Under the pieces are notes generated by a model. That model did not search any database. It was not told the origin of the DNA and worked only from the letters and a program-made list of their open reading frames with translations. Below, piece after piece: positions 26,612-40,912 of a DNA stretch of 64,000 bases (position 1 is the stretch's first letter; each line of letters opens with the position of its first letter). The position numbers and the translations under genes were made by a program. Source of the DNA: Polychytrium aggregatum (Eukaryota; Chytridiomycota; Chytridiomycetes; Polychytriales); NCBI RefSeq assembly GCF_025602895.1, contig NW_026516235.1, forward strand, positions 62,001-126,000, read 5' to 3'.

Positions 26612-29600
26612 TCAGCGCTGCCTGCTGGCCATATCAATGGCGTTATCAATACTGGTTGGTATCCAACGGCTGTGGCTGGTCAAATCACCACCCTCGTGCA
26701 CGAACACAACACCGTCATCAATGAACAAAATGAGCCGCCGTGGGGCTGACTCTGGTCCAAGCGAAAAGAGAGCCTTGCCGCTTTCGTGCTTGCGGTGGAG
26801 GGGCAGGAAAACCAAGTCGTTTTCGGCTGCACGCTTCTCGGCGTACTCTTTGAAGGAGATGTCCGGTGCGCTGCGTTGCCGCCGGGCAGCGGCTGTGTCG
26901 ACTGGCGGAATAGGCTGGGGCTCTTCGCCGAGGACCCGCTGCAAGTGCGCATCGACCGCCTTCCACGACAGGCTGCCATCGAGTTGGTCACTGATCAGCT
27001 CCAGAGCGAGCTTGAATGAATCCTCGATGCCCGAGTGTCGCAGCAGCGTCGACGGGAACGATCCTTTCCAGGCAAAATACCACTGCTGTACTTGCTCGAG
27101 ATCGCAGGTGCTATGGCCGAGCCAACGATACAGTGCCTCAAGCCATTTGGGAAAGAACTCGGTCTCAAATGCGCGGGCCATCAGAGCATCCGGAATGGTG
27201 CCATGCCATGCAACAACCCACGCAAACGGCTCCATGTTCTGGTGCTCAGACGGCGTCACCAACAGCTCGTTGCGGAGTGTGTGAATCAGTTTGGGCAGCA
27301 CCGCCCGGACCAGCATACTGTCGATCTCGGCATCCGGAAGAACACCCCTCCAGGGCTTGATGTTGGCAATCCCTTGAGGATCGGACGGATGCCAGCCGTT
27401 GGAGTTAATTCCAAAGCTCTTTTCCAGTCTCCGGCGAATCGGCGTGAGAAGCGGCTGAAGCTGATCTCCGAGCAGGGGCAGCCACGGATGGATCCACCAA
27501 TGCATCGATGGTTTCGTGGGGCTCCAGTCATCAATGGCCGACGAGAGCTTGGGCATCAAGAGTTGGTCGACAATGTTGTCCATGAGCCAGCGGGGGATCG
27601 TAGTTGCACTCGCACCATTGTCGGACTCGGAGGCCGATTGATCGTAATGCCCAGTGCACCACGCGCTTAGGAGCTGGACCAAAGGCTCGGGCTCGTACAC
27701 ATCCCACGAGTTGCTGTGGGAGAATAGGCATGGAGAAGAACTGGGTTAGCGGCAGGCTTGGTCGACTGCATCATGAACCCGATCCGGGCATTAACCGACA
27801 AGCAGCAGGCGGGGCCAAGCTCTGTCATAGCGCACTCATCACAGCACCGATGCCGTCATCGTTCAGGTGAGCTGTTGCCAGTACTGCTTACTTGATTGCC
27901 GAGCGGATCTTTGGCAGCCAGATGTGGTAAAGGAGGCTCTCGTATGGCGTCATTTTGGCGTTGCCGCTGTCTGCGCTATCTTGAATGAACCTGGTTGCTG
28001 CCCCAAAGTGATCGATCTCATCGGCCTCCAGATGCCTCGACTTTGGTTGTGACTGTGGCGGTGTTGACGACGAAGTCGTGTGGAGCAGTTGCTTCCACTG
28101 CTTGAAATGATGTACGAAGGTCGAGGGCGATTCGAGCGGACTCCACATCCTGGTCATGGCTTGTATGATCGGCGAGATCGACGCAACGACCAATTCGTCG
28201 AGATTGTAGGCTTTGTACTCCTCGTAGTATTGGCTTGATAATGTCTCGAATATCGGGCTGAAAAGCTTGAGCGGGTCTGCGTCAGAGCCCTCGCGCACGA
28301 GGACAAGCGCCTGCCGCGAAAGAGCCTGGCAGTCCTGCGCTAGTTTCGAGACTTCCTCCAGCCTCTTGATCTTGCTGCCTTCGGCAGCAACTACAGATTT
28401 GAGCCGGGCTTCCTTGGTTTGCAGCTGATCACGGGCGTCTTTCACAAGCTTCAGTTGCTTGCTGAGCTGCATGAGCTGGTCTTGGGACAGGTCCACTAGT
28501 AGCCGCATGTTGTACCGCAGCTCGGGTATCCGCTCGGTGGCCGCAACCGAAGGCACACTCGTCGATTTGATCTGAGATGCGTCCACGATCACACGAGCTT
28601 CGGGCCCACGCATATCGATGATCTTGGTAACGGCGGGGGCGGCGGCCGGTCGGCTGGGAGCGTTGTCGCCTGGACTGCCGTCTTGCTCTAGGAGGATCTC
28701 GTGGGCGGTTTTGTACTGCGCTTTGGCCCGACGGGAGCCTCGCTTCCACCCATCATGCGACCGCGATACTGCGTCTTTATCGTCTCTTGTGGCTTTGGCT
28801 GAGTCGTCGTCCTGGGCCTCGTCCGACTGCTGTTTCGAGCGTTTCTCAGCCTTCATTGTCTCTGTCTGGAAGTCCACTCGGCCCAGACCAGCGCCCTTGG
28901 GCAGAACCTTGACGTCGATGGGCTTAGCGATGCCCTCGCTGTTCATGCCCAGTCCCTGGCCGACTTTGTAGCCTTGCTTCGAGAGCAGCTTGAATCCAAT
29001 GCCGTATGCAGATTCCAGCTTCTTGATGTCTTGGCGCGATGCTTGCGGAGCGGAGCTTGGAGCCGGCTGTTTAGACTGAGTGGGCGCTTTGGGGGGCTTG
29101 CGAGTCGATCCGAACTCGATGTTTTGCATGTTGCGCATTGCATCGGACATCGAATCTAGATTGGACGCTGCTGGGGCAGAGGCCGAGCTGCGGCCAAAGC
29201 CCAGACCGCTGGAGTGGAACGACATGGATGGTCGGCTCTCCTCCTCCTCCTCGCTCTCCTCGTCCTTGTTCCAGACCATGGGCCGCCGGCGACCGGTATC
29301 GCTGTCGCCGTCATCCTCATCATCAGAGTCGCCATGGCCATCGTCATGGCCATCATCGTGCTCGCTGTTGCTGGGGCTGATACTCTCGTTGCCATGCGGC
29401 GGTCGACGAGCCCGCCGGCGGATCCGGGAACCTCCAACGTCATTATCCGAGCCGGAATCAGACCCGCTGTCTGTCGACCGAGTGTCGGGCTGATCGAGTT
29501 CCATGTCATCTTTGCCACGGCGAGCGTCCGAAGGGGGGGCAGACCGCCCAATGGAGGGACCGGGGGGCTGCGTTGTTGACTTTGAGGCTACAAACTGCAC

Positions 29601-29944
29601 GGGCTCGTTCTTGCGTCCTCTCCGCGGCTTCCAGCTGCGATCTTCGTCGCTTTCATAGCCAAAAACACCGTATATCATTTCATCCTTGGACGCATGACGT
29701 CTTGCTCGCGATGCAGGATCTAGAGACAGCGACACAGCAACAAACGGGCCAAGAAATATGTCAGAAGAATCAGCGGAGAGATCGAAATCAGCGTGTCGAG
29801 TAGAGCGGACTGCCTGCCTCGGAAAAGCTGCTCCTCATCGATGTGATCTTGATCAAGGCCATCAGCACCGTCGTCGTCAAAGTCTTGCTCCGATGCCGAC
29901 GAGTCGAACTCGTCGTCTCCAAAGGTCTTTTTTCGCTTGCCCAT
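26612..29944 (-). CDS. NTR1: G-patch spliceosome disassembly factor Ntr1/Spp382 (TFIP11 family)
   Basis: Three exons on the minus strand: 29818-29944, 27892-29719, 26612-27713 (1018 aa). An acidic N terminus begins MGKRKKTFGDDEFDSS. The TIP-N-like segment has KDEMIYGVFGYESDED. The G-patch is GIGFKLLSKQGYKVGQGLGM followed by KPIDVKVLPKGAGLG. A coiled-coil region follows, then the conserved C-terminal GCF-like domain (WLPKIRSAIN joined across the intron to SWDVYEPEPLVQLL; DDWSPTKPSMHWWIHPWLPL; PWRGVLPDAEIDSML). The family activates the DEAH helicase Prp43 for intron-lariat release. Intron 1 (29720-29817) only fits with a GC donor (GAG|GCAGGC); no GT donor gives the right phase. Intron 2 is canonical. 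Confidence 0.94.
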
Positions 29945-30441: not shown

Positions 30442-33400
30442 TCAATCGCTTCGTGTGATCCGACACGAAGACACGATCTCGGCACTCAGCCCGAGGGTCC
30501 GCCCAGCCACGATGGAGCTGGAATTATCATAGACGAGGTAGTAGACACCATATTTGCCCGTGATGGGCACGCTGCCGGAGATGGTCGTGCGCTGTGAATT
30601 GGCCTTCATGAATGGCGAGATGATCTCGCGAGCAAATCCTGGAGGGGTGGCCGGCCCAGCTTGTTCTCTGGCGGGGTACTCGACAGAGGGTGGTCCAGCC
30701 GAAATGGCTGAGCTCGTGGCCGATCCAGCAGAGATGGCAGAGACGATCGTCTGTTCCTCAAGCGGTCGATTGCTTGTGGGATCGGAGCTTTGCGGATGCC
30801 GCAGCTCCGGCTCGAGATCCTCCAGCGAGTGCGTGGCGCTGACAGGCGACGATTCGTGGGAACTGCGCGAGATGGGCCGGGGCGAAGGGTGCCGCGCAGG
30901 CGATGTCAAGACTGTCAAGCCCGCAGGATCGCTTGGAGGTGACTGGGCGGTCGTACCATGGCTGGAGCCAGAGCTTGTTGTTGGATGATCCGTCGCACCG
31001 ACAGCACCGGCAGGGGCAGTTCCAGCGGCGTTGTGGTTGACAACAGCGGCGAGTCGGAGGGCGAGTGATTGCTTGCGAGCTTCCTGTGCCTGCTCGCTGT
31101 TTGCGGCGTTCGGAGGAGGTGCCGTCACGGTTGACCTCCGGCTCATCATGGATGTGATGGTTCGTCGCGTGCTCTTCGGGGAAGGTTGTGCAGCAGTGGC
31201 AGTGGCAGCAGCGGCGGCGGCGGCGGCAGCAGCAGGGGTGGTGGAAGCAGCGATTGTCGAAGCAGCGGTCGAAGCAACAGCCGAAGCAGCGGTCGAAGCA
31301 ATAGATGATGTCTCTATCGAGCGGTGGACTGGCTCGGAGCGCTCGGCGTCAACATGGCCGGCAGGCTCGAGTTCAGTGCCGGCGCTGGCACCGGCATCCG
31401 ATACACCGCCGCGGGACCAGGGCTTGTTGGCAGCGGCGGCAACAACACCGCCAACCATTCCGGCGGCGGCGGCGGCAGCGGCACGGAGCGAGCCCACGCT
31501 TGTTTTGTGGGCCACGCCTTTGGACTTGCCACCGCTGTCGGTCTGAGGAATGGCGGCAGACGCTCCCGATGCCGACAGGACCGCTGACAGATCCACGTTT
31601 TCAATGGGCAGGCTCTGCTGAGGAATAAAGACGATGCCGAACATGATGTCGTAGCCTCCGGTCGAAAAGTCCCACCGGAGAAGGGTCTGCTGCTCGGTCG
31701 TGGTGTCGTGATCGGCACCAAAGGCATCCGACAGGATCGTCTCGGTAGCCATGATCTTCATCTTGAGCTCGAGGTTCTCATCGTAGAGCAGAGGGATGCG
31801 ACAGACGGACTTTCGGCTTATCAGGTACTCGCTGTAAAGGCTGAAGGAGAACTTGACCTCCGACTTGGGCCGCTTGTAGAGCTTCAGGGGCGAGAGCGAG
31901 ACGGGGCGAACGATGTACTTGTATCCGAGCGACTTTTGGCCCTTCTTTTGTGCCTGTAAGTTCTCCCAGACAAGATAGAATGTACCCGAGGAAAGCGAAC
32001 TGATGCAGATGTTACCGCTCGTCGGCCGCGAGTATGCATTCACGGGGCACGCGGGGAGGATGGTGAGGGCCGCTTCCAGGTCATCACCGGCAGCACTTGG
32101 GAGGAAGCTCGAGTTCCAAACAGGACGAAGGCTGTCGGGCTCGCCAGCCTCAGCGCTCGGGACAAAGTAGATGCCAAAGGTGATTGGCTGCTCGGTGTCG
32201 ACCATAAACTGCCAAGCCAATTCAAGCGCCGTGCATTGGTCGTATCGGTTGTGGTCAAAGACGACGGGGATTTTGAAGACCTCCTTGGGCTGAAGCAGCT
32301 TCTCGATGGGAGAGTTTCGCTCGTACGAGGTCATTAGAATATCGTCTGTGCTCGATGACGGGCTAAAAATGGCCTCGATGTGGTGCCCATTGCCGTGGGA
32401 GTTGTAGCGCGACATGGACCTGTGGTGTAAGGCCACGTCCGGTAACAGCTCGCCGTCGGTCTCATCTTGGGTATCGTCGCAGTCCTGGTATATGGTGCCG
32501 ACAAGCGGATCGTCATAGTCGTCCGGAGGCTCCTCGTCCACCCTGTCCAAATACGGATCGCTTGAGGCTGAAAAGAACATCTCGTTGCCGTGGTCTTCAT
32601 TGTGGTCCCCGGCGTCGTCGTCGTGGAGGGCGAGCGGGCTTTCGCGACCATCAATCCCGGGCAGCCGAGGAATGTCCGACGACATGTATCCATCGCTTTC
32701 ATCCATGCCGCTCTCGGCGCCACTGGCGCGCGAATCGCGCTTGCCGCTGTTGAGCCAGGTGCGACGGGTCTTCAAAATCGTGGTGGCAGTGGCGCTTGCA
32801 GCATCGATGAGTGCTTTGATCTTGGTGTCCTTGGCCTTTGCCGATGCGCTCAGGGCAATGCCGTCTGTACTTGCGTCCGTGTCGTGTGTCTCTGGCGCAG
32901 CCGCGACCGAGCCGGTGCGAGTCGACGCTGCTGCGTTCGGATCTTTACCGCTCGTGGTGGTGCCGAAGAACTTGCGCCGACGCAGCTCGGTGCCACTGTT
33001 GCTGCTGCCGGTGCCCCACACCGCCGAGGCAGCAAAGCTCAGCAGGCTGCTTCCCACGCCCGTCACCAGCGACGAGGTCGACGGCTGGATAGTGCCATCC
33101 GGATCGGCATCTCGGCTCTGGCTCTTGACACGGGCTTCGAGCTCCTCGATAAACTTCTTCAGTTTGCGACTTGAGTTGTAGGTAGCCTCGAGGCGATTCA
33201 ACTCGTTGCTGAACTGGCTGACGACTGTAACTTGGCATACGTTGGGGCCTTGTGGCTCAATGTAGTAGCCATAGATGTGTACATTGTGCAGATTTGAGGG
33301 GTCGAAGGACTCGGGTGGCTGCAATGAGCCGGACGGAAGGCTGCCGCTCTCACCCATGGGGACGCTGCTGTTGCCGGGAAGCGATCGGCTTACATCGGGC

Positions 33401-36400
33401 CCATCCCGAAGACTGCCCAACGACGATGCTCGCAGCGAGGACGATGCAGGAGTGGCCACGGGTATTGGCTGCGACGATGTCAAAGAGACACGGGCATCTT
33501 CAAGGGAGGATGTCTGATGCGGCTGGCTGACGGGAAACGCATCTGGCGAGAGGTTGGCATCATGGGACTCGAGGTTGGCCAGGTCGCCTTCGGTCGGTAG
33601 GATCGATCGATACACAACCACATAGGAGTCTTGTTCGTGGTTACTGGATGAGGCCGCGTCTGCGGGAGCTGGCTCGTGCGCCATTCCGGGATGGGAGACC
33701 GACCCGGCCTTTGAGGAGAGGCGCTGCCGGATCTCCAATGCCACAAAGCCTTTCTTGACCTTGCCGATATTGTAGGTGGTGTAGCGGATGATGTTGATTG
33801 GACCTTGGGCAGAGGCAGGAGGATACAAGAGCGAGCGTAAGTATTGATACGGAGAGAGTTACGATCCGAGCCATGGCGGGCAACATTTGCGGCAAATGGG
33901 AATGATGGGTCTGCATCCACCGATCTAGACTCACTGATGTGTCGCAGGATCGTTGTTTTATCGTAGCTTTCATCGACGTGGCGCATATGCTCGGGATTGC
34001 TCAGTATCTAACAGTCAGCGAGGACGGGCTCAGGGTCAAACAACTTGTCCGGCGGTGACAAAGTGTGGTGGCAAAAGTCCCATAGAATGTGGCGTGCATG
34101 CTGGGCCATAATCCGGAAGCAACCAGAGTCGTCTGGGTGGCGAGGACACTTGCAACGAGGACACTTGCAACGAGGACACTTGCGACGAGGACACTTGCGA
34201 CGGAGATAATTGCGACGAGGATAATCGCAACAGGCAAGACACACGCCGGCCATCGATGGACTCACCGAAAACACACTGGCGGCATCGCACGCAATCCGGA
34301 GAAAGACGCGAGTGACCTCGCCGACTTGGCCGTTGACGGCGACACGCTTGCGCTGGATATGAACGCCGCCCCGATTCTTGATGGTCTTCCAAACAATGGG
34401 GCCGATGGCGCTGGTCGCGGCAGGGGTGGTTGAGAGATTCGAGGCGTCGACGAAGGCTGCCTTACCATCACCTCGGTCATCCTCGCGGGCGAGCTGGATG
34501 AATGGGGGCACAAGCGATTCGTTGTATTCCAACACTTCTTGGGCATCCGCTGGGCTGGGTGAGTCGAGGGCGAAGGCTATGCTGTGCAGGACATCGGGAA
34601 CAACCCATGGGGTCCACGGCTTGGGATTGCTGCGAAGAAAAGCCGAGCGGTTCTCCCACAGGGTGCCGTTGTTTGGAGTGCGACGGCTGGGGCTGCCCGC
34701 ACGCTTGAACGAGCGCTCGGACTTGAGCTTGGTCGTCTGGCCTTTTTCTCGAGCAATCTCTTCTTCCAACGAGGGCGCCATCAGCGGCATAAAAAAGATA
34801 CGCCAAGAGGGAAGCACCCAGAGCTCCAGGAACATCTTGCGGACAATCTTGCCCAGAACCCTGTTGACCATGTCGCGCAGCATCTCGCTCTCGCCAAGGG
34901 TGATGGGAGAGTCGACCGTGAAAGCTGCCCCGGGGTCTTCGGCAAAGGTAATGGCGAGCATGTCCGACCATTTTTCCGAAGGACATCGCAGTCGAAGCTT
35001 GAGAATGACCAGTCGAACCCGAAGCGATAGAAATGTGGCGTTGGGAAGGATCGAGATGGTGTGCAGTTAGCTCGGAGCTGTCGACACTGTGGATTCCAGC
35101 AAGAATGCACGTAGCATTCGCAGCAAGTGCAAAATCGAGCATTGACGAGGAGCAGAGCGGTCCTGGAGCAGCTGAGAAGAATCCCAATCGAATCCGGGCG
35201 GATGGGCCGGTGCTCCTTTGATAGCAGCAGCTGGTGTGGTTGTGAGATAGTTACCTTTCCTTCCAAGCTACTGAGTGTAACGCGGACAGGGATAGTGATG
35301 CCTCCGACCAGTGTCGCCTGGATGCCAATGGACGCACCGCCAGTGTATTTCATGTCCAGCTCGATGGTCTTTGGACGAAAGTGCGTTGGTTATAGCCCGC
35401 ATCCATGAACAAATGAGACGAGCATAATTAGCGCGCGAATATAGGCTGCTGGTGAGGAATCAGTACTCCTGCGAGTCAGCTGGCGTCTGGTAGGAGACCC
35501 CCACTAAACGGCGATGCCGACATGCCAAAAGATCGCCCAAGACACCACCCGACGACGTCGACTCACAACAGCATGATCTTCGCTGACGCCCTTGATGAGT
35601 CGAACTCCAGAGACATCGGGGGCATGGTCTCCGAGAGAAAGCTCACATATGTTGATGTACGACTGAGGAGAGTGGATGCATGGAAGCGGTTGGTGCCGGT
35701 GTTGATGACGGATTGATCAATGTTGAGCCGGATACCAGGATATGTCCAGACACAGACGACATAGGTTAGGAATGGGACCATGTCGGCGTCCAAGTACCGG
35801 ACGAGAATGACACATGGCGGAGGATATAAATGATGCAAAGGTGGAGAAGAGCAGCGTCGATCCATGCAAAATGTACAGAGAGAATGCAACTAATCCGGTC
35901 GTGTGATGAATTTGGTGATGGAGGTCGACAGAGCAGACCGACAAGCAGCCATACACATCCGCATGCAGGCAGACGGCGTGGAGTATCGAGTGGCACGAGC
36001 AGTCAGCGAGAGCACAACTACGGCTGCTTACGACATAGGTGTTGCCCTTGAGCTTCATGTTCATCTTTTTCATCATTTTTTCCTTCATATTGGTCTTGAA
36101 GGCCTCCTCGTTGCGCAGCGCCAGAAAGAAGCGGTGGGCGAGGACATTGGCCCAATGACAGGTCTCTGTTGCAGACGCATACTCGGGCTCGGGAGGCGGC
36201 AGATCCTTGGCCGCGGCGGGAGCGGCAGAGGGCCGGGGAGGAATTAAGACATCGTCGTCGGCCGGAGTCAAGGCCTTGGCGAGGAACTCGAGAATGCCGG
36301 TCGGATAGTTGTCGGTCGGGATGTCCTTGTGGATTTCGACGCCGCTAATGATGGCGGGAACATACTGGGAGATTCGGGTGCGGGGGTCGAGCAGGAACTT

Positions 36401-36529
36401 GACGAGCTTGTAGATGATCAGAGCCTCGACCAAGACGACAATGACGATCCCAAAGAAGATGCCACGGGCATAGTAGGAAAGCGCCGTTACGGAATCGAGG
36501 GCATATCCGATATCGGCAGAGGACACCAT
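30442..36529 (-). CDS. Membrane-anchored SMP-START-GOLD-GOLD lipid-transfer protein
   Basis: Six exons on the minus strand: 36032-36529, 35567-35662, 35255-35368, 34266-34997, 33935-34007, 30442-33803 (1624 aa, all phases consistent). An N-terminal membrane segment, FFGIVIVVLVEALIIYKLV, spans about residues 25-43. An SMP-like domain covers about 118-290: ETCHWANVLAHRFFLALRNE, ICELSLGDHAPDVSGVRL, ELDMKYTGGASIGI, LRLRCPSEKWSDMLAITFAE. A START domain runs from about 425 to 745: IKNRGGVHIQRKRVAV, then VF joined by splicing to ILSNPEHMRHVDES, later VHIYGYYIEPQG. Two GOLD-like beta domains follow: ELAWQFMVDTEQPITFGIYF at about 1030, and LLRWDFSTGGYDIMFGIVF at about 1225 completed by GKYGVYYLVYDNSSS near 1585, with a ~330-residue low-complexity insert. 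SMP proteins work at ER contact sites and START binds lipids or sterols; combined function is inferred. Confidence 0.85.
34141..34231. repeat. 15-bp minisatellite in an intron of the SMP-START gene
   Basis: Six copies of a 15-bp unit, cgaggacacttgcaa, with ordered changes (tgcaa to tgcga, then gataat), within intron 34008-34265 that interrupts the START-coding region. Confidence 0.95.
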
Positions 36530-36630
36530 GAGCCTAGAAGACGAGATGGAAGGATATGGGGATATGGGGTTGTATGTGAGGATATGCGGATGTGAGCAGC
36601 GCAGACCAGCACAATGAGGCCGGAGACGGA

Positions 36631-36692
36631 GAGCGATGCAGCGAGAGCGATGCAGCGAGAGCGATGCAGCGAGAGCGATGCAGCGAGAACGA
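36631..36692. repeat. 15-bp tandem repeat (gagagcgatgcagc)
   Basis: Four near-perfect copies of gagcgatgcagcgag upstream of the lipid-transfer gene start. Confidence 0.9.
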
Positions 36693-37040
36693 TGAGGGCA
36701 AAGTCCACAAGCGTCCTCATCTGCATCAAAGACTCGTCGCAGACCAGGGGGCTCTCCGTTTGGCCGAGCGTCCGGGAGACGGTGCTGGGCCGGCGATCAT
36801 ATGACGGCAGACATGGCTGGCCGAGCGACAATACGCAGAAAGACGCACCAAGGGGTTCTGGATGTTGGGCGTCCAGGGGCGGTTGCGACGGGGGCAGAGC
36901 GGACTCGGAGACAATCGAGATGGCGGCGGGCTGGGCAAGAGCGCTGGAGGGTGGAGAGAGAGAACGAGGGAGCAGTTCTGGGGAGCCAATCGTGCGACGC
37001 CAGCGCCCCAAAAGCCAAAGCCGAACAAGTAACGGCCCTA

Positions 37041-37108
37041 GCGATGCCTTGGCGATGCTTTGGTGATGCCTTGGCGATGCTTTGGTGATGCCTTGGCGAT
37101 GCTTTGGC
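37041..37108. repeat. 21-bp tandem repeat
   Basis: Three copies of gatgccttggcgatgctttggt, itself made of two related half units (gatgccttggc / gatgctttggt). Confidence 0.9.
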
Positions 37109-37432: not shown

Positions 37433-37548
37433 CACACAACCCACACAACCCACGCAACCCACACAACCCACACAACCCACACAACCCACACAACCCACAC
37501 AACCCACACAACCCACACAACCCACGCAACCCACACAACCCACGCAAG
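37433..37548. repeat. 9-bp tandem repeat (CACACAACC)
   Basis: About thirteen copies of cacacaacc in strict 9-bp register, with a few cacgcaacc variants. Strongly strand-asymmetric: only A, C and rare G on the plus strand. One plus frame would encode HNP repeats and one minus frame GCV repeats, but neither belongs to a supported gene. Confidence 0.95.
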
Positions 37549-38515
37549 TCATCCATGTCTGAAAGAATAAGTTCGCTGTCATGTCCAGCGAAGGCGTCGG
37601 TCGTGAAGCAGCAACCGCAGAAGCACTGCCCCGCAGCAAGCCAACAGCGACTGTGGCTGCGCCGAGACGCGCGGCGATTGGCTGGCCGCCCCACCCTCGC
37701 CACATGACCGACCCAGCCCTTGCCCCAGCCCTTGCCCTCGCTGCAGAATGAATTTCATCAGCGCCTTGCGCAGCCCCTTTTTTTTGCCCCGCTTGCGTTC
37801 GTGTGCGGGTCCCGCCATCGCATTCCCGTCAAAGGCCAAAGCGGATCGCCTGCCTTTCGCCAGCGAGTATCAGCTCGATCCCCCCCGAGCAACCGGACCA
37901 AGCAACCCATCGTCGAGCGTGCTGAGAACCAGCAGCCTGGAGGTACTCGGATCCTCACCATCACGCCTTCCCCCCGCCGCGCTGCTGTTCCATGGATCCT
38001 GCTGCGTTGGCTCGATCTGCCTCCATCATCCGCGCCTGCACATCCCTCCCGTCCTGCACTTGCACTATCGCCAACCGAGCATCGTCTTGGTGTTGATCTG
38101 CCTTCGTCCCGTCGTCGCGGCGTCACCGTACTGGATCTCTCTGCTCTATTGCTGATCATCTTCCTCTGATACACACCCGCTTTTACTGGATTCGCTGTTC
38201 TGCGACTCAACCCGATCCTGCCAACTCTGCGTCCAACTCGCACATTGTGCTGGCCCGGATCGACATCGGCCTCGATTCGATCTACCGCATCGCGACACGG
38301 CTTGCTTTCGGCTACTGATGTGCTTCACGACGTCACCCCGAACGATCACTGGCATGGCAATCCACTCGGTACTCACCACTCTTGGTATCGATGCCGACTT
38401 CGCCCACTGTGCCTGTCTCGGCTGGGCCTGTCTCTCGGTGGCGACCTGCTGCAACCGTACGCCCCCCCCGTTGTGGGACTATCTTGCTCTTTACCCAATC
38501 CTGGGATCCAGCACC

Positions 38516-40912
38516 ATGTCCACTTTGCACATTCTGTTTGAAACTGCCTCGGGGTATACCCTGTTTGAGCGGCTGGAGGCCGAGGAGATCGGCCAGGAGC
38601 TTGAGGAGGTCCAGCAGGCCACCGTCGACTTTGCCAAGTTTGGCAAGATCATCAAGCTCAAGTCCTTTGCGCCCTTCAAGTCGGCTGCCCATGCCCTGGA
38701 AAACATGATGGACGTTTCGGAAGGTACACACGACCGATTCTGCTGTTCTTGCTCGATCCACCAAAGCCGGGCCTCGGCTGCCCGTGATGTTTCGCGAGCC
38801 GTACTGTTTGCACACCAACGCCTTGTCTCGGTCTGTCTGGCTCGGCTTCCTCATACCTTGGGTACGCCTGAGCGTCTCGCACCTCGGCTGAACTGACGCT
38901 GCCGACATTGAACCGATCCTTTGGCAGCCGTTGTCAACCCTCATCTGAAGGCCTTCCTGGAGATGAACCTGCCCAAGGCCGGCAAAAAGGCCAAGGTGCA
39001 GCTCGGCGTCTTCGACAAGAGCTTGGCTGGTGCCATCAAGACCGAGCTCGGAGTCGACTGTGTCAGCAACGACGTTGTCCTGGAATTGATCCGTGGCATC
39101 CGACTGCACGCTGAAAAGTTCCTCAAGCAACTCAAGGAAGGCGATCTGGGCCGAGCCCAGCTCGGTCTTGGCCATTCGTACTCGCGTGCCAAGGTCAAGT
39201 TCAACGTCAACCGTTCCGATAACATGGTTATCCAGGCGATCAGTCTGCTGGACCAGCTTGACAAGGACGTCAACACCTTCTCGATGCGCATCAGGTAAAT
39301 TTAGTGCTTGACTGCCGCCTGTTGTCTGGGAGCGGGAGCAGCTGGGAAGCTGTCGATGGCAGCCCCCCCCCTCTGTATCATTGAGATTCTCATCGTGGCT
39401 GCCATCACAATCATGCAGGGAATGGTATGGATGGCACTTCCCCGAGCTTGTCCGTATCGTCAACGACAACTACATCTACGCCAAGCTGGCCAAGTTTATC
39501 CGAAACAAGAGCGACCTCTCCGAGGCTCAGCTGGAGCAGCTCGAGGAAATCTCTGGCGATCCCAGCAAAGCCAAGCAGATTCTGGATGCTGCTCGTGCCT
39601 CCATGGGTGAGTTTCGGATTTACCGGGCGTGAACAGCCTCGATTCATTGAAGGCATCGACGACTCTGGATACATGCGTCGTCGTTGCGACCGTCGCCGTG
39701 CCACCGTGTCGTCTGCCCAAATGTCGAGCTCCACACCGCCCACACCACGCGTGCTGACACTTCCATCTGATCATCATACTACTACCACCCATCGGCAACT
39801 GCGAATGGCTGCGGTCAATAATGTCAATAATGTCAATAATGTCAATCGCGCCGCCATGATGCGATCTTTCCGACGGCGGTGCTCACTTCAACCTGTTCGA
39901 CGACACGACGATATTTGCTGCCAGGCACGGACATTGCCGAGATCGACATGCTGAACATCGAGAACTTTGCCGACCGAGTCATTGCCCTCACGGACTATCG
40001 CAAGCAGCTCCACGGATACCTTGTCAGCAAGATGCATGTGATTGCTCCCAACCTGTCCTCTCTGATCGGAGAAATGGTCGGCGCCCGTCTGATTTCTCAC
40101 GCCGGCAGCTTGACCAACCTGGCCAAGTACCCTGCGTCGACCGTGCAGATCCTCGGTGCCGAGAAGGCCCTCTTCCGCGCCCTCAAGACCCGTGGCAAGA
40201 CGCCAAAGTACGGTCTGATCTACCACTCGTCCTTCATTGGCCGCGCCGGCCAGAAGAACAAGGGCCGCATCTCGCGCTTCCTCGCCAACAAGTGCACCAT
40301 CGCCTCCCGCATCGACTGTTTCCTGGACAAGCAGACCTCCAAGTTCGGTGAGCTGCTGAAGGAGCAGGTCGAGGAGCGACTCAAGTTTTACGAAGAGGGC
40401 GTGACTCCCCGAAAGAACGCCGAGGTCATGGCCAAGGCGCTGGCGAACGCCCGGTCCGAGGGTGATATGGATCTCGACGACGACGATGAAGCAGGTTCGT
40501 GGTGGGCCATGTGACAATCCTGCTGGTCCCTTCTCCCCTCCCCGCTTGCGTGAACGTACCCCTTGAAGCCTGCGATAGCATCCGATAATAATATTGCGAC
40601 AACCATTCGTGTTTGGCTGAAACAGAGGAGCCCAAGGCCTCCAAGAAATCTTCCAAGAAGGATGTGGACACTGAAATGGAGGATGCCACTCCCAAGAAAA
40701 AGTCCAAGAAGGACAAGAAGAAGGCCGCCGATGAGGACGAGGCCGAGGAGAAGGACAAGAAGAAGAAGAAGAAGAGCAAGGACGCTGCCGAAGAAGACAC
40801 TGAAGCTGCGGACAAGTCGGAGAAGAAGAAGAAGAAGAAGAAGGATGCTGAGGACGACACCGAGGCGCCGTCAGACAAGAAGGAGAAGAAGAAGAAGAAG
40901 AACAAGGAGTAG
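38516..40912 (+). CDS. NOP56: Box C/D snoRNP core protein Nop56
   Basis: Five exons: 38516-38723, 38928-39294, 39419-39606, 39925-40494, 40626-40912 (539 aa). The N-terminal domain starts [20 protein letters not shown] and continues with [10 protein letters not shown]. The coiled-coil region holds [20 protein letters not shown] and [11 protein letters not shown], rebuilt by splicing. The Nop domain carries the highly conserved [40 protein letters not shown] and [20 protein letters not shown]. The C-terminal exon is a Lys/Glu-rich (KKKSKKD-type) tail typical of nucleolar Nop56/58. ISHAGSLT and the N terminus favour Nop56 over Nop58. It guides 2'-O-methylation of rRNA with Nop1, Nop58 and Snu13. 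Confidence 0.97.
39815..39846. repeat. 9-bp repeat in Nop56 intron
   Basis: Four copies of gtcaataat within the 39607-39924 intron of the Nop56 gene. Confidence 0.85.

Follow-up and report, generated by a model that had tools for sequence, protein, structure and literature searches.

A chytrid gene with a membrane anchor, an SMP domain, a START-like domain and tandem GOLD domains: a candidate two-carrier lipid transfer protein

Can a single fungal polypeptide combine two unrelated lipid-transfer modules behind one membrane anchor? The question is raised by a minus-strand gene in a 64,000-nucleotide stretch of Polychytrium aggregatum DNA (contig NW_026516235.1, positions 62,001 to 126,000; hereafter the window, to which all coordinates refer), from which a sequence-only reading had proposed a protein with an N-terminal membrane segment, an SMP domain, a START domain and two GOLD domains, in an order for which it knew no precedent. 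Here we find that the gene is real and its structure clear, and we put at roughly 0.6 the probability that it encodes a single polypeptide with an anchor, a PDZD8-type SMP domain, a START-like domain, an acidic linker and tandem GOLD domains, acting as a two-carrier protein anchored in the endoplasmic reticulum (ER). The earlier interpretation thus appears largely right on architecture and is unproven on function.

Joining six exons on the minus strand across 30442-36529 gives, in frame, 1624 codons and a stop, as had been proposed, and all five introns (369, 198, 257, 258 and 131 bases) run from GT to AG. Past an upstream stop, the first ATG in frame lies at 36529. GC content at codon positions 1/2/3 is 0.55/0.39/0.75 in exon 1, 0.66/0.38/0.50 in exon 2, 0.53/0.47/0.66 in exon 3, 0.60/0.48/0.70 in exon 4, 0.52/0.29/0.62 in exon 5 and 0.58/0.53/0.69 in exon 6, so that the third position (GC3) is the highest in five of the six exons; the exception is exon 2 (96 bases), which is supported instead by its position inside the Pfam SMP match. 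Intron GC at any position lies between 0.48 and 0.58, and stops interrupt two or more frames of every intron except intron 5, where they fall in one. A scan for bacterial-type promoters and terminators, of a type not designed for fungi, remained at chance level.

Whether the SMP half and the START-GOLD half belong to one chain can be judged largely from exon 4. This exon carries in one open frame both the end of the SMP domain (SEKWSDMLAITFAEDPG... RIFFMPLM) and the beginning of the START-like domain (IVWKTIKN... ACDAASVFS), which makes two separate genes unlikely, and exon 6 likewise carries in one open frame the end of the START-like domain and both GOLD domains. The two halves are linked solely by the joins between exons 4, 5 and 6, and an alignment with STARD10 crosses both. 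Intron 4 (34008-34265; 258 bases) is open in the exon 4 frame up to a stop at its 3' end, and its retention could conceivably yield an SMP protein of ~565 residues ending at that stop; this is what favours the idea that two transcripts, one for SMP and one for START-GOLD, have been mistakenly joined. However, comparable openness is seen in 390 of 5000 shuffles, which leaves a retained-intron isoform possible but not indicated, and GC by position within the intron (0.58/0.55/0.56) has no coding-type pattern. A 15-base difference in intron 4 length between the two genomic copies described below, being a multiple of three, is neutral here. With the N-terminal part of the START-like domain already in exon 4, we regard a mistaken joining of two transcripts as very improbable.

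The N-terminal membrane anchor foreseen by the sequence-only reading is evident from a hydrophobic segment within residues 14-49, whose 19-residue Kyte-Doolittle peak of 2.58 is the sole strong one in the 1624 residues, the next-best value (1.61) coming from an alanine run. A spacer of ~74 residues separates it from the SMP domain, close to the anchor spacing of 45-75 residues given in passages on membrane-anchored TULIPs (PMC4463742), a class that the arrangement fits. The presence of an SMP domain is firmly supported by profile search, as had been predicted: Pfam MMM1 (PF10296; cut-off 21.9) matches residues 120-219 with 30.7 bits (E 2.5e-7) in a scan of residues 1-330 and with 26.4 bits, again above the cut-off, in a scan of the whole chain. 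The SMP blocks picked out earlier are present, although one of them reads EKWSDMLAITFAED and not 'EWxxDM'.

Pairwise scores extend the domain beyond the Pfam match. Residues 199-312, its C-terminal half, score 45 against Mmm1 of the same genome (none of 1000 shuffles; maximum 44), and residues 120-312 score 53 against the N-terminal part of that protein (none of 1000 shuffles), 45 against its C-terminal part (reached by 2 of 1000) and 31 against the N-terminal part of an Mdm12-like protein (reached by 69 of 1000). Higher values were obtained with an unconfirmed PDZD8 sequence: 115 for residues 120-312 (none of 1000 shuffles; maximum 52) and 102 for residues 199-312 (shuffle maximum 55). Among solved structures in the PDB, Mmm1 (5yk6) is reached at E 0.11, the correct family at a value not significant by itself; the SMP-START part as a whole (740 residues) retrieved no PDB entry at E up to 10, and NCBIfam gave no match for SMP or START. 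Three points weigh against this assignment or its refinement. The PF10296 match spans just positions 16-115 of a 244-position profile, the C-terminal half alone had no Pfam match in two scans made without the N-terminal part, and what we take to be the human PDZD8 sequence, having no relevant PDB or Pfam match, is unconfirmed and may be inexact. Since the PDZD8 letters are unconfirmed, we treat 'PDZD8-type' as a lead.

PDZD8, a protein of animals and their relatives, is built of an N-terminal membrane segment followed by an SMP domain, and it shares this layout, along with the best pairwise match of those tried, with the present protein; the chain here differs in having no Pfam match to PDZ, C1 or C2 at E up to 10 and in carrying START and GOLD domains instead. 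Mmm1 also begins with a membrane segment and an SMP domain and is found by the same Pfam model, whose very name could suggest that the protein is the host's own Mmm1, an ERMES subunit, with extra domains attached. Against this, a better Mmm1 is encoded elsewhere in the genome (C132/C375), with exon scores of 70.1, 52.9 and 47.6 bits and an N-terminal hydrophobic stretch visible by eye, and the likeness to that Mmm1 falls below the likeness to the unconfirmed PDZD8 sequence, so identity with Mmm1 seems barely credible. One phylogenetic study also notes that Mmm1 has no lengthy C-terminal extension bearing accessory domains (PMC6069729). A weaker SMP locus in the genome, at 22.4 bits, we take to be Mdm12 judging by its sequence.

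Residues 435-730 are supported as a divergent START-like domain by weak similarity with controls. The sequence-only reading had named a failure of profile searches to find SMP or START as a refutation; for START in the unedited chain Pfam does fail, finding none in the whole protein or in residues 406-740, and matches appear, below cut-off, only once low-complexity inserts are removed. In four insert-trimmed variants, with trim points of our choosing, Polyketide_cyc2 (PF10604) was matched in all four (E 0.0041-0.092, below cut-off) and START (PF01852) in three (E 0.016-0.16, 11.7-15.0 bits), the fourth giving none; both families are members of one helix-grip superfamily. None of seven control sequences, one reversed and six shuffled, matched any Pfam family. 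A small START profile, made from the START protein of this genome, CERT and STARD10, scored 24.84 and 23.44 by hhalign against two trimmed versions, while 200 shuffles of the first version reached no more than 18.65, and 25 segments from elsewhere in the protein no more than 15.21. STARD10 alone aligned with a score of 66 (none of 1000 shuffles; maximum 51), retaining blocks on both sides of the inserts. The START hallmark that had been placed across a splice junction does span it, with the reading corrected to VFS before the junction and ILSNPEHMRHVD after it, the serine having been omitted.

It should be noted that a good deal weighs against a START assignment. Every START score of the trimmed variants lies under the curated cut-off (22 for PF01852), two of the four variants are near-identical and the matches of the longest are short pieces. 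The untrimmed segment scores 21.63, aligned over only 21 columns, and the hhalign probability is low at 10.7%, for a single-sequence query against a three-sequence profile. About 127 inserted residues interrupt the domain, and the usual START residues 'WD', present in STARD10, read 'VD' here. The weak score, the altered residue and the two inserts would all suit a tether in which the START-like domain has a structural or protein-binding role without lipid transport, and only the SMP domain moves lipid. The blocks flanking the inserts still align with STARD10, which argues the other way, and we consider such a tether rather unlikely; its architecture is that of the two-carrier protein, and the odds of the two overlap. 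PDB matches of the trimmed domain to a virus capsid and to PB1 (E above 1) are unrelated and were dismissed as chance. Elsewhere in the genome, at C14 and C375, another START protein scores 76.7 bits, with CERT as its closest solved structures; its frame ends in a hydrophobic stretch, judged by eye, so that the fungus has in addition a simpler, possibly tail-anchored START protein.

Of the two GOLD segments proposed earlier, the last is clear and the first stands by a weaker, controlled test. Profile scores identify the last domain as GOLD_2 (PF13897; cut-off 28.4), scoring 29.5 bits when native residues 981-1624 are scanned and rising to 32.8 bits with most of its insert removed, and the trimmed domain matches the GOLD domain of ACBD3 in the PDB at E 0.0055-0.007 and SEC14L3 at E 0.17. 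A match to GOLD_PATL1_C (E 0.049-0.084) is consistent with GOLD, though far under its own cut-off. The first domain is supported by its similarity to the trimmed second, a score of 69 with most of the length aligned (none of 1000 shuffles; maximum 54). On the other side of the balance, PF13897 scores 25.5 in the whole chain, under the cut-off; the hhalign score between the two domains (22.57) is barely over the shuffle maximum of 22.19 (n=100); and the first domain has no Pfam family at E up to 10 and no relevant PDB match. In viral contigs, exon 4 had no pattern match and GOLD 1 had 42, none a relative, and in bacterial and archaeal contigs exon 4 had 56, again none a relative; these are collections in which fungal relatives are not expected. 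The three GOLD_2 matches listed genome-wide at E up to 1 all belong to the gene described here or its second copy, each below the cut-off when scored exon by exon. Six PDB matches of the first domain, none better than E 0.11, were to an antibody and to chains of cytokine receptors and were discarded, and weak Pfam matches to gpW, VIT, DUF2715, Cofac_haem_bdg and Phage_Mu_Gp37 were dropped as chance.

The acidic linker (residues 741-1001) contains the sequence MFFSASS, which could be a phospho-FFAT motif and which bears on the orientation of the protein. STARD3 combines a membrane anchor, a phospho-FFAT motif and START, and by the same plan the anchor might lie in an organelle other than the ER, which the acidic FFAT-like motif would contact by binding VAP there. 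With its serine at position 4 after an acidic stretch, MFFSASS resembles the phospho-FFAT motifs described in the passages available (PMC7610837), and MSP domains, as in VAP, have eight matches in the genome. However, the motif was sought post hoc, and the same rule picks one out in 63 of 2000 shuffled proteins. The membrane-anchored SMP proteins known so far reside in the ER. This too argues against the reversed topology, which we judge improbable.

According to the two-carrier reading, the anchor would most likely lie in the ER membrane with everything past it in the cytosol. The SMP (TULIP) domain would move glycerophospholipids or phosphoinositides and the START domain would carry one lipid of a different class, while the GOLD pair, on a long flexible acidic tether, would dock to a protein or membrane of a partner organelle (Golgi or endosome), taking the place of PDZD8's own C-terminal domains. 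GOLD domains act as docking modules, and it is on this and on analogy with PDZD8 that the idea draws: passages of a study in C. elegans place PDZD-8 at contacts between ER and late endosomes and describe its SMP domain as carrying phosphoinositides (PMC8523718). By the same analogy we infer that both carriers would be active, and the protein may reasonably be viewed as a self-contained contact-site bridge; the SMP and START domains might even exchange two lipid classes in opposite directions. That a zoosporic-fungus lineage uses an SMP tube and a START carrier together, with the GOLD pair selecting the partner organelle, is possible, though less likely than not; among eukaryotic proteins it would be the first known to hold both an SMP and a START domain.

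To our knowledge, each chain of the SMP family pairs a single kind of lipid-transfer domain with targeting domains. If the two-carrier reading is true, the family has in addition taken up a second carrier unrelated to the first, and one gene would suffice to test counter-transport by two carriers at a contact site. It would also give a concrete architecture, in a genome that retains Mmm1, to the probable match of a previously unnamed paralog. The claim of an undescribed domain order holds to the extent that no SMP-START-GOLD protein appears among the titles and abstracts listed by targeted full-text searches of open PMC papers (subscription papers lying outside that scope), and it is softened by a phylogeny (Wideman et al. 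2018, PMC6069729) that reports a further SMP paralog, not given a name, as 'specific to flagellated fungi'. Like the present protein, that paralog is an SMP protein apart from Mmm1, Mdm12, Mdm34, Nvj2 and PDZD8 in flagellated fungi; the main text names no START or GOLD in it (PMC6069729). The protein described here probably belongs to this family, which was noticed in 2018 but, by that main text, not characterised (PMC6069729).

Each of the other domains has relatives in other settings. Residues 435-730 resemble the START domains of STARD3, CERT and STARD10, and we know of no SMP or GOLD domain in those proteins. The last domain matches GOLD of ACBD3 and, weakly, SEC14L3; here GOLD is doubled and fused to SMP-START. 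Lam proteins are membrane-anchored, and Ysp2 and Lam4 have two StART-like domains, but the passages describing them name no TULIP (PMC4463742). Pairing of the two folds has a precedent in clostridial OrfX2, where, in the passages concerned, a TULIP interfaces with a StART-like domain, although OrfX2 comes from bacteria and has a permuted StART-like domain (PMC6791001).

Table 1. Coordinates of the gene's exons, domains and motifs in the window.
Feature	Position	Strand	Residues and content	Support
Exon 1	36032..36529	-	1-166: start codon, membrane segment, linker, SMP first part	in frame, GC3 0.75
Exon 2	35567..35662	-	167-198: SMP block YINICELSLGDHAPDVSGVRLI	within MMM1 match, residues 120-219; GC3 0.50
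Exon 3	35255..35368	-	199-236: SMP block IELDMKYTGG...SLEGK	GC3, frame, pairwise scores
Exon 4	34266..34997	-	237-480: SMP C-terminal part, linker, START N-terminal part	single open frame
Exon 5	33935..34007	-	481-505 in part: ILSNPEHMRHVDESYDKTTILRHIS	
Exon 6	30442..33803	-	505-1624 and stop: START remainder, acidic linker, both GOLD domains	
N-terminal membrane segment	36392..36469	-	about 21-46	Kyte-Doolittle peak 2.58
SMP domain	34770..36172	-	about 120-312, spliced over exons 1-4	PF10296 and pairwise scores
START-like domain	33127..34403	-	about 435-730, spliced over exons 4-6	below Pfam cut-off
Low-complexity START inserts	33289..33705	-	538-562 and 575-676; strand DSYVVVYRSILP at 563-574 between	
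Phospho-FFAT-like motif MFFSASS	32560..32580	-	913-919, follows acidic stretch	weak: 63/2000 shuffles
GOLD-like domain 1	31888..32313	-	1002-1143	likeness to insert-trimmed GOLD 2
GOLD domain 2, first part	31582..31851	-	1156-1245	PF13897; ACBD3 GOLD in PDB
GOLD-2 insert, low-complexity, 316 residues	30634..31581	-	1246-1561	about 64% A/S/T/P/G
GOLD domain 2, last part	30472..30633	-	1562-1615	PF13897 profile 88-133

The host is marked as a flagellated fungus by chitin synthase (26 exon matches) and IFT46 (14 matches), in keeping with the early-diverging fungus suggested by the sequence-only reading. Two distinct IFT46-like loci (C27/C113 and C113/C405) are each present in two copies, some of the matches containing stops that may be introns. 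A DNA search of the genome with the full-length gene found six places, namely its own locus, a copy of ~100% identity on contig C395 and four matches of 41-46 bases, all to the repetitive GOLD-2 insert; a search of it with the exon 4 protein gave, at E up to 1, nothing further. Over 4875 coding bases the C395 copy differs by three substitutions and no indel, two of them changing amino acids, both in the GOLD-2 insert, and one silent, and its introns differ by three substitutions and one 15-base indel. This copy is probably the other haplotype.

The contigs C257 and C395, which are near-identical, have different copy numbers of short tandem repeats at 34141-34221, 36629-36694, 37041-37108 and 37433-37547, with units of 15, 14, 11/22 and 9 bases, as haplotypes would; the variable 15-base repeat sits in intron 4. 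An apparent insertion at window position 38100 between these contigs is merely the end of the compared stretch. Directly downstream of the gene is a TFIP11-like splicing factor gene (26612-29944, minus strand), with Pfam GCFC, G-patch and TIP_N in open reading frames 26612-27745 and 27888-29834 and an apparent ATG at 29944. Upstream, on the opposite strand, is a Nop-domain gene (216.5 bits; 38516-40514, plus strand; open reading frame 39840-40511), whose apparent ATG at 38516 lies ~2 kb upstream of the start codon of the SMP-START-GOLD gene; the joining of these two ATGs, 29944 and 38516, to their open reading frames is our own reading.

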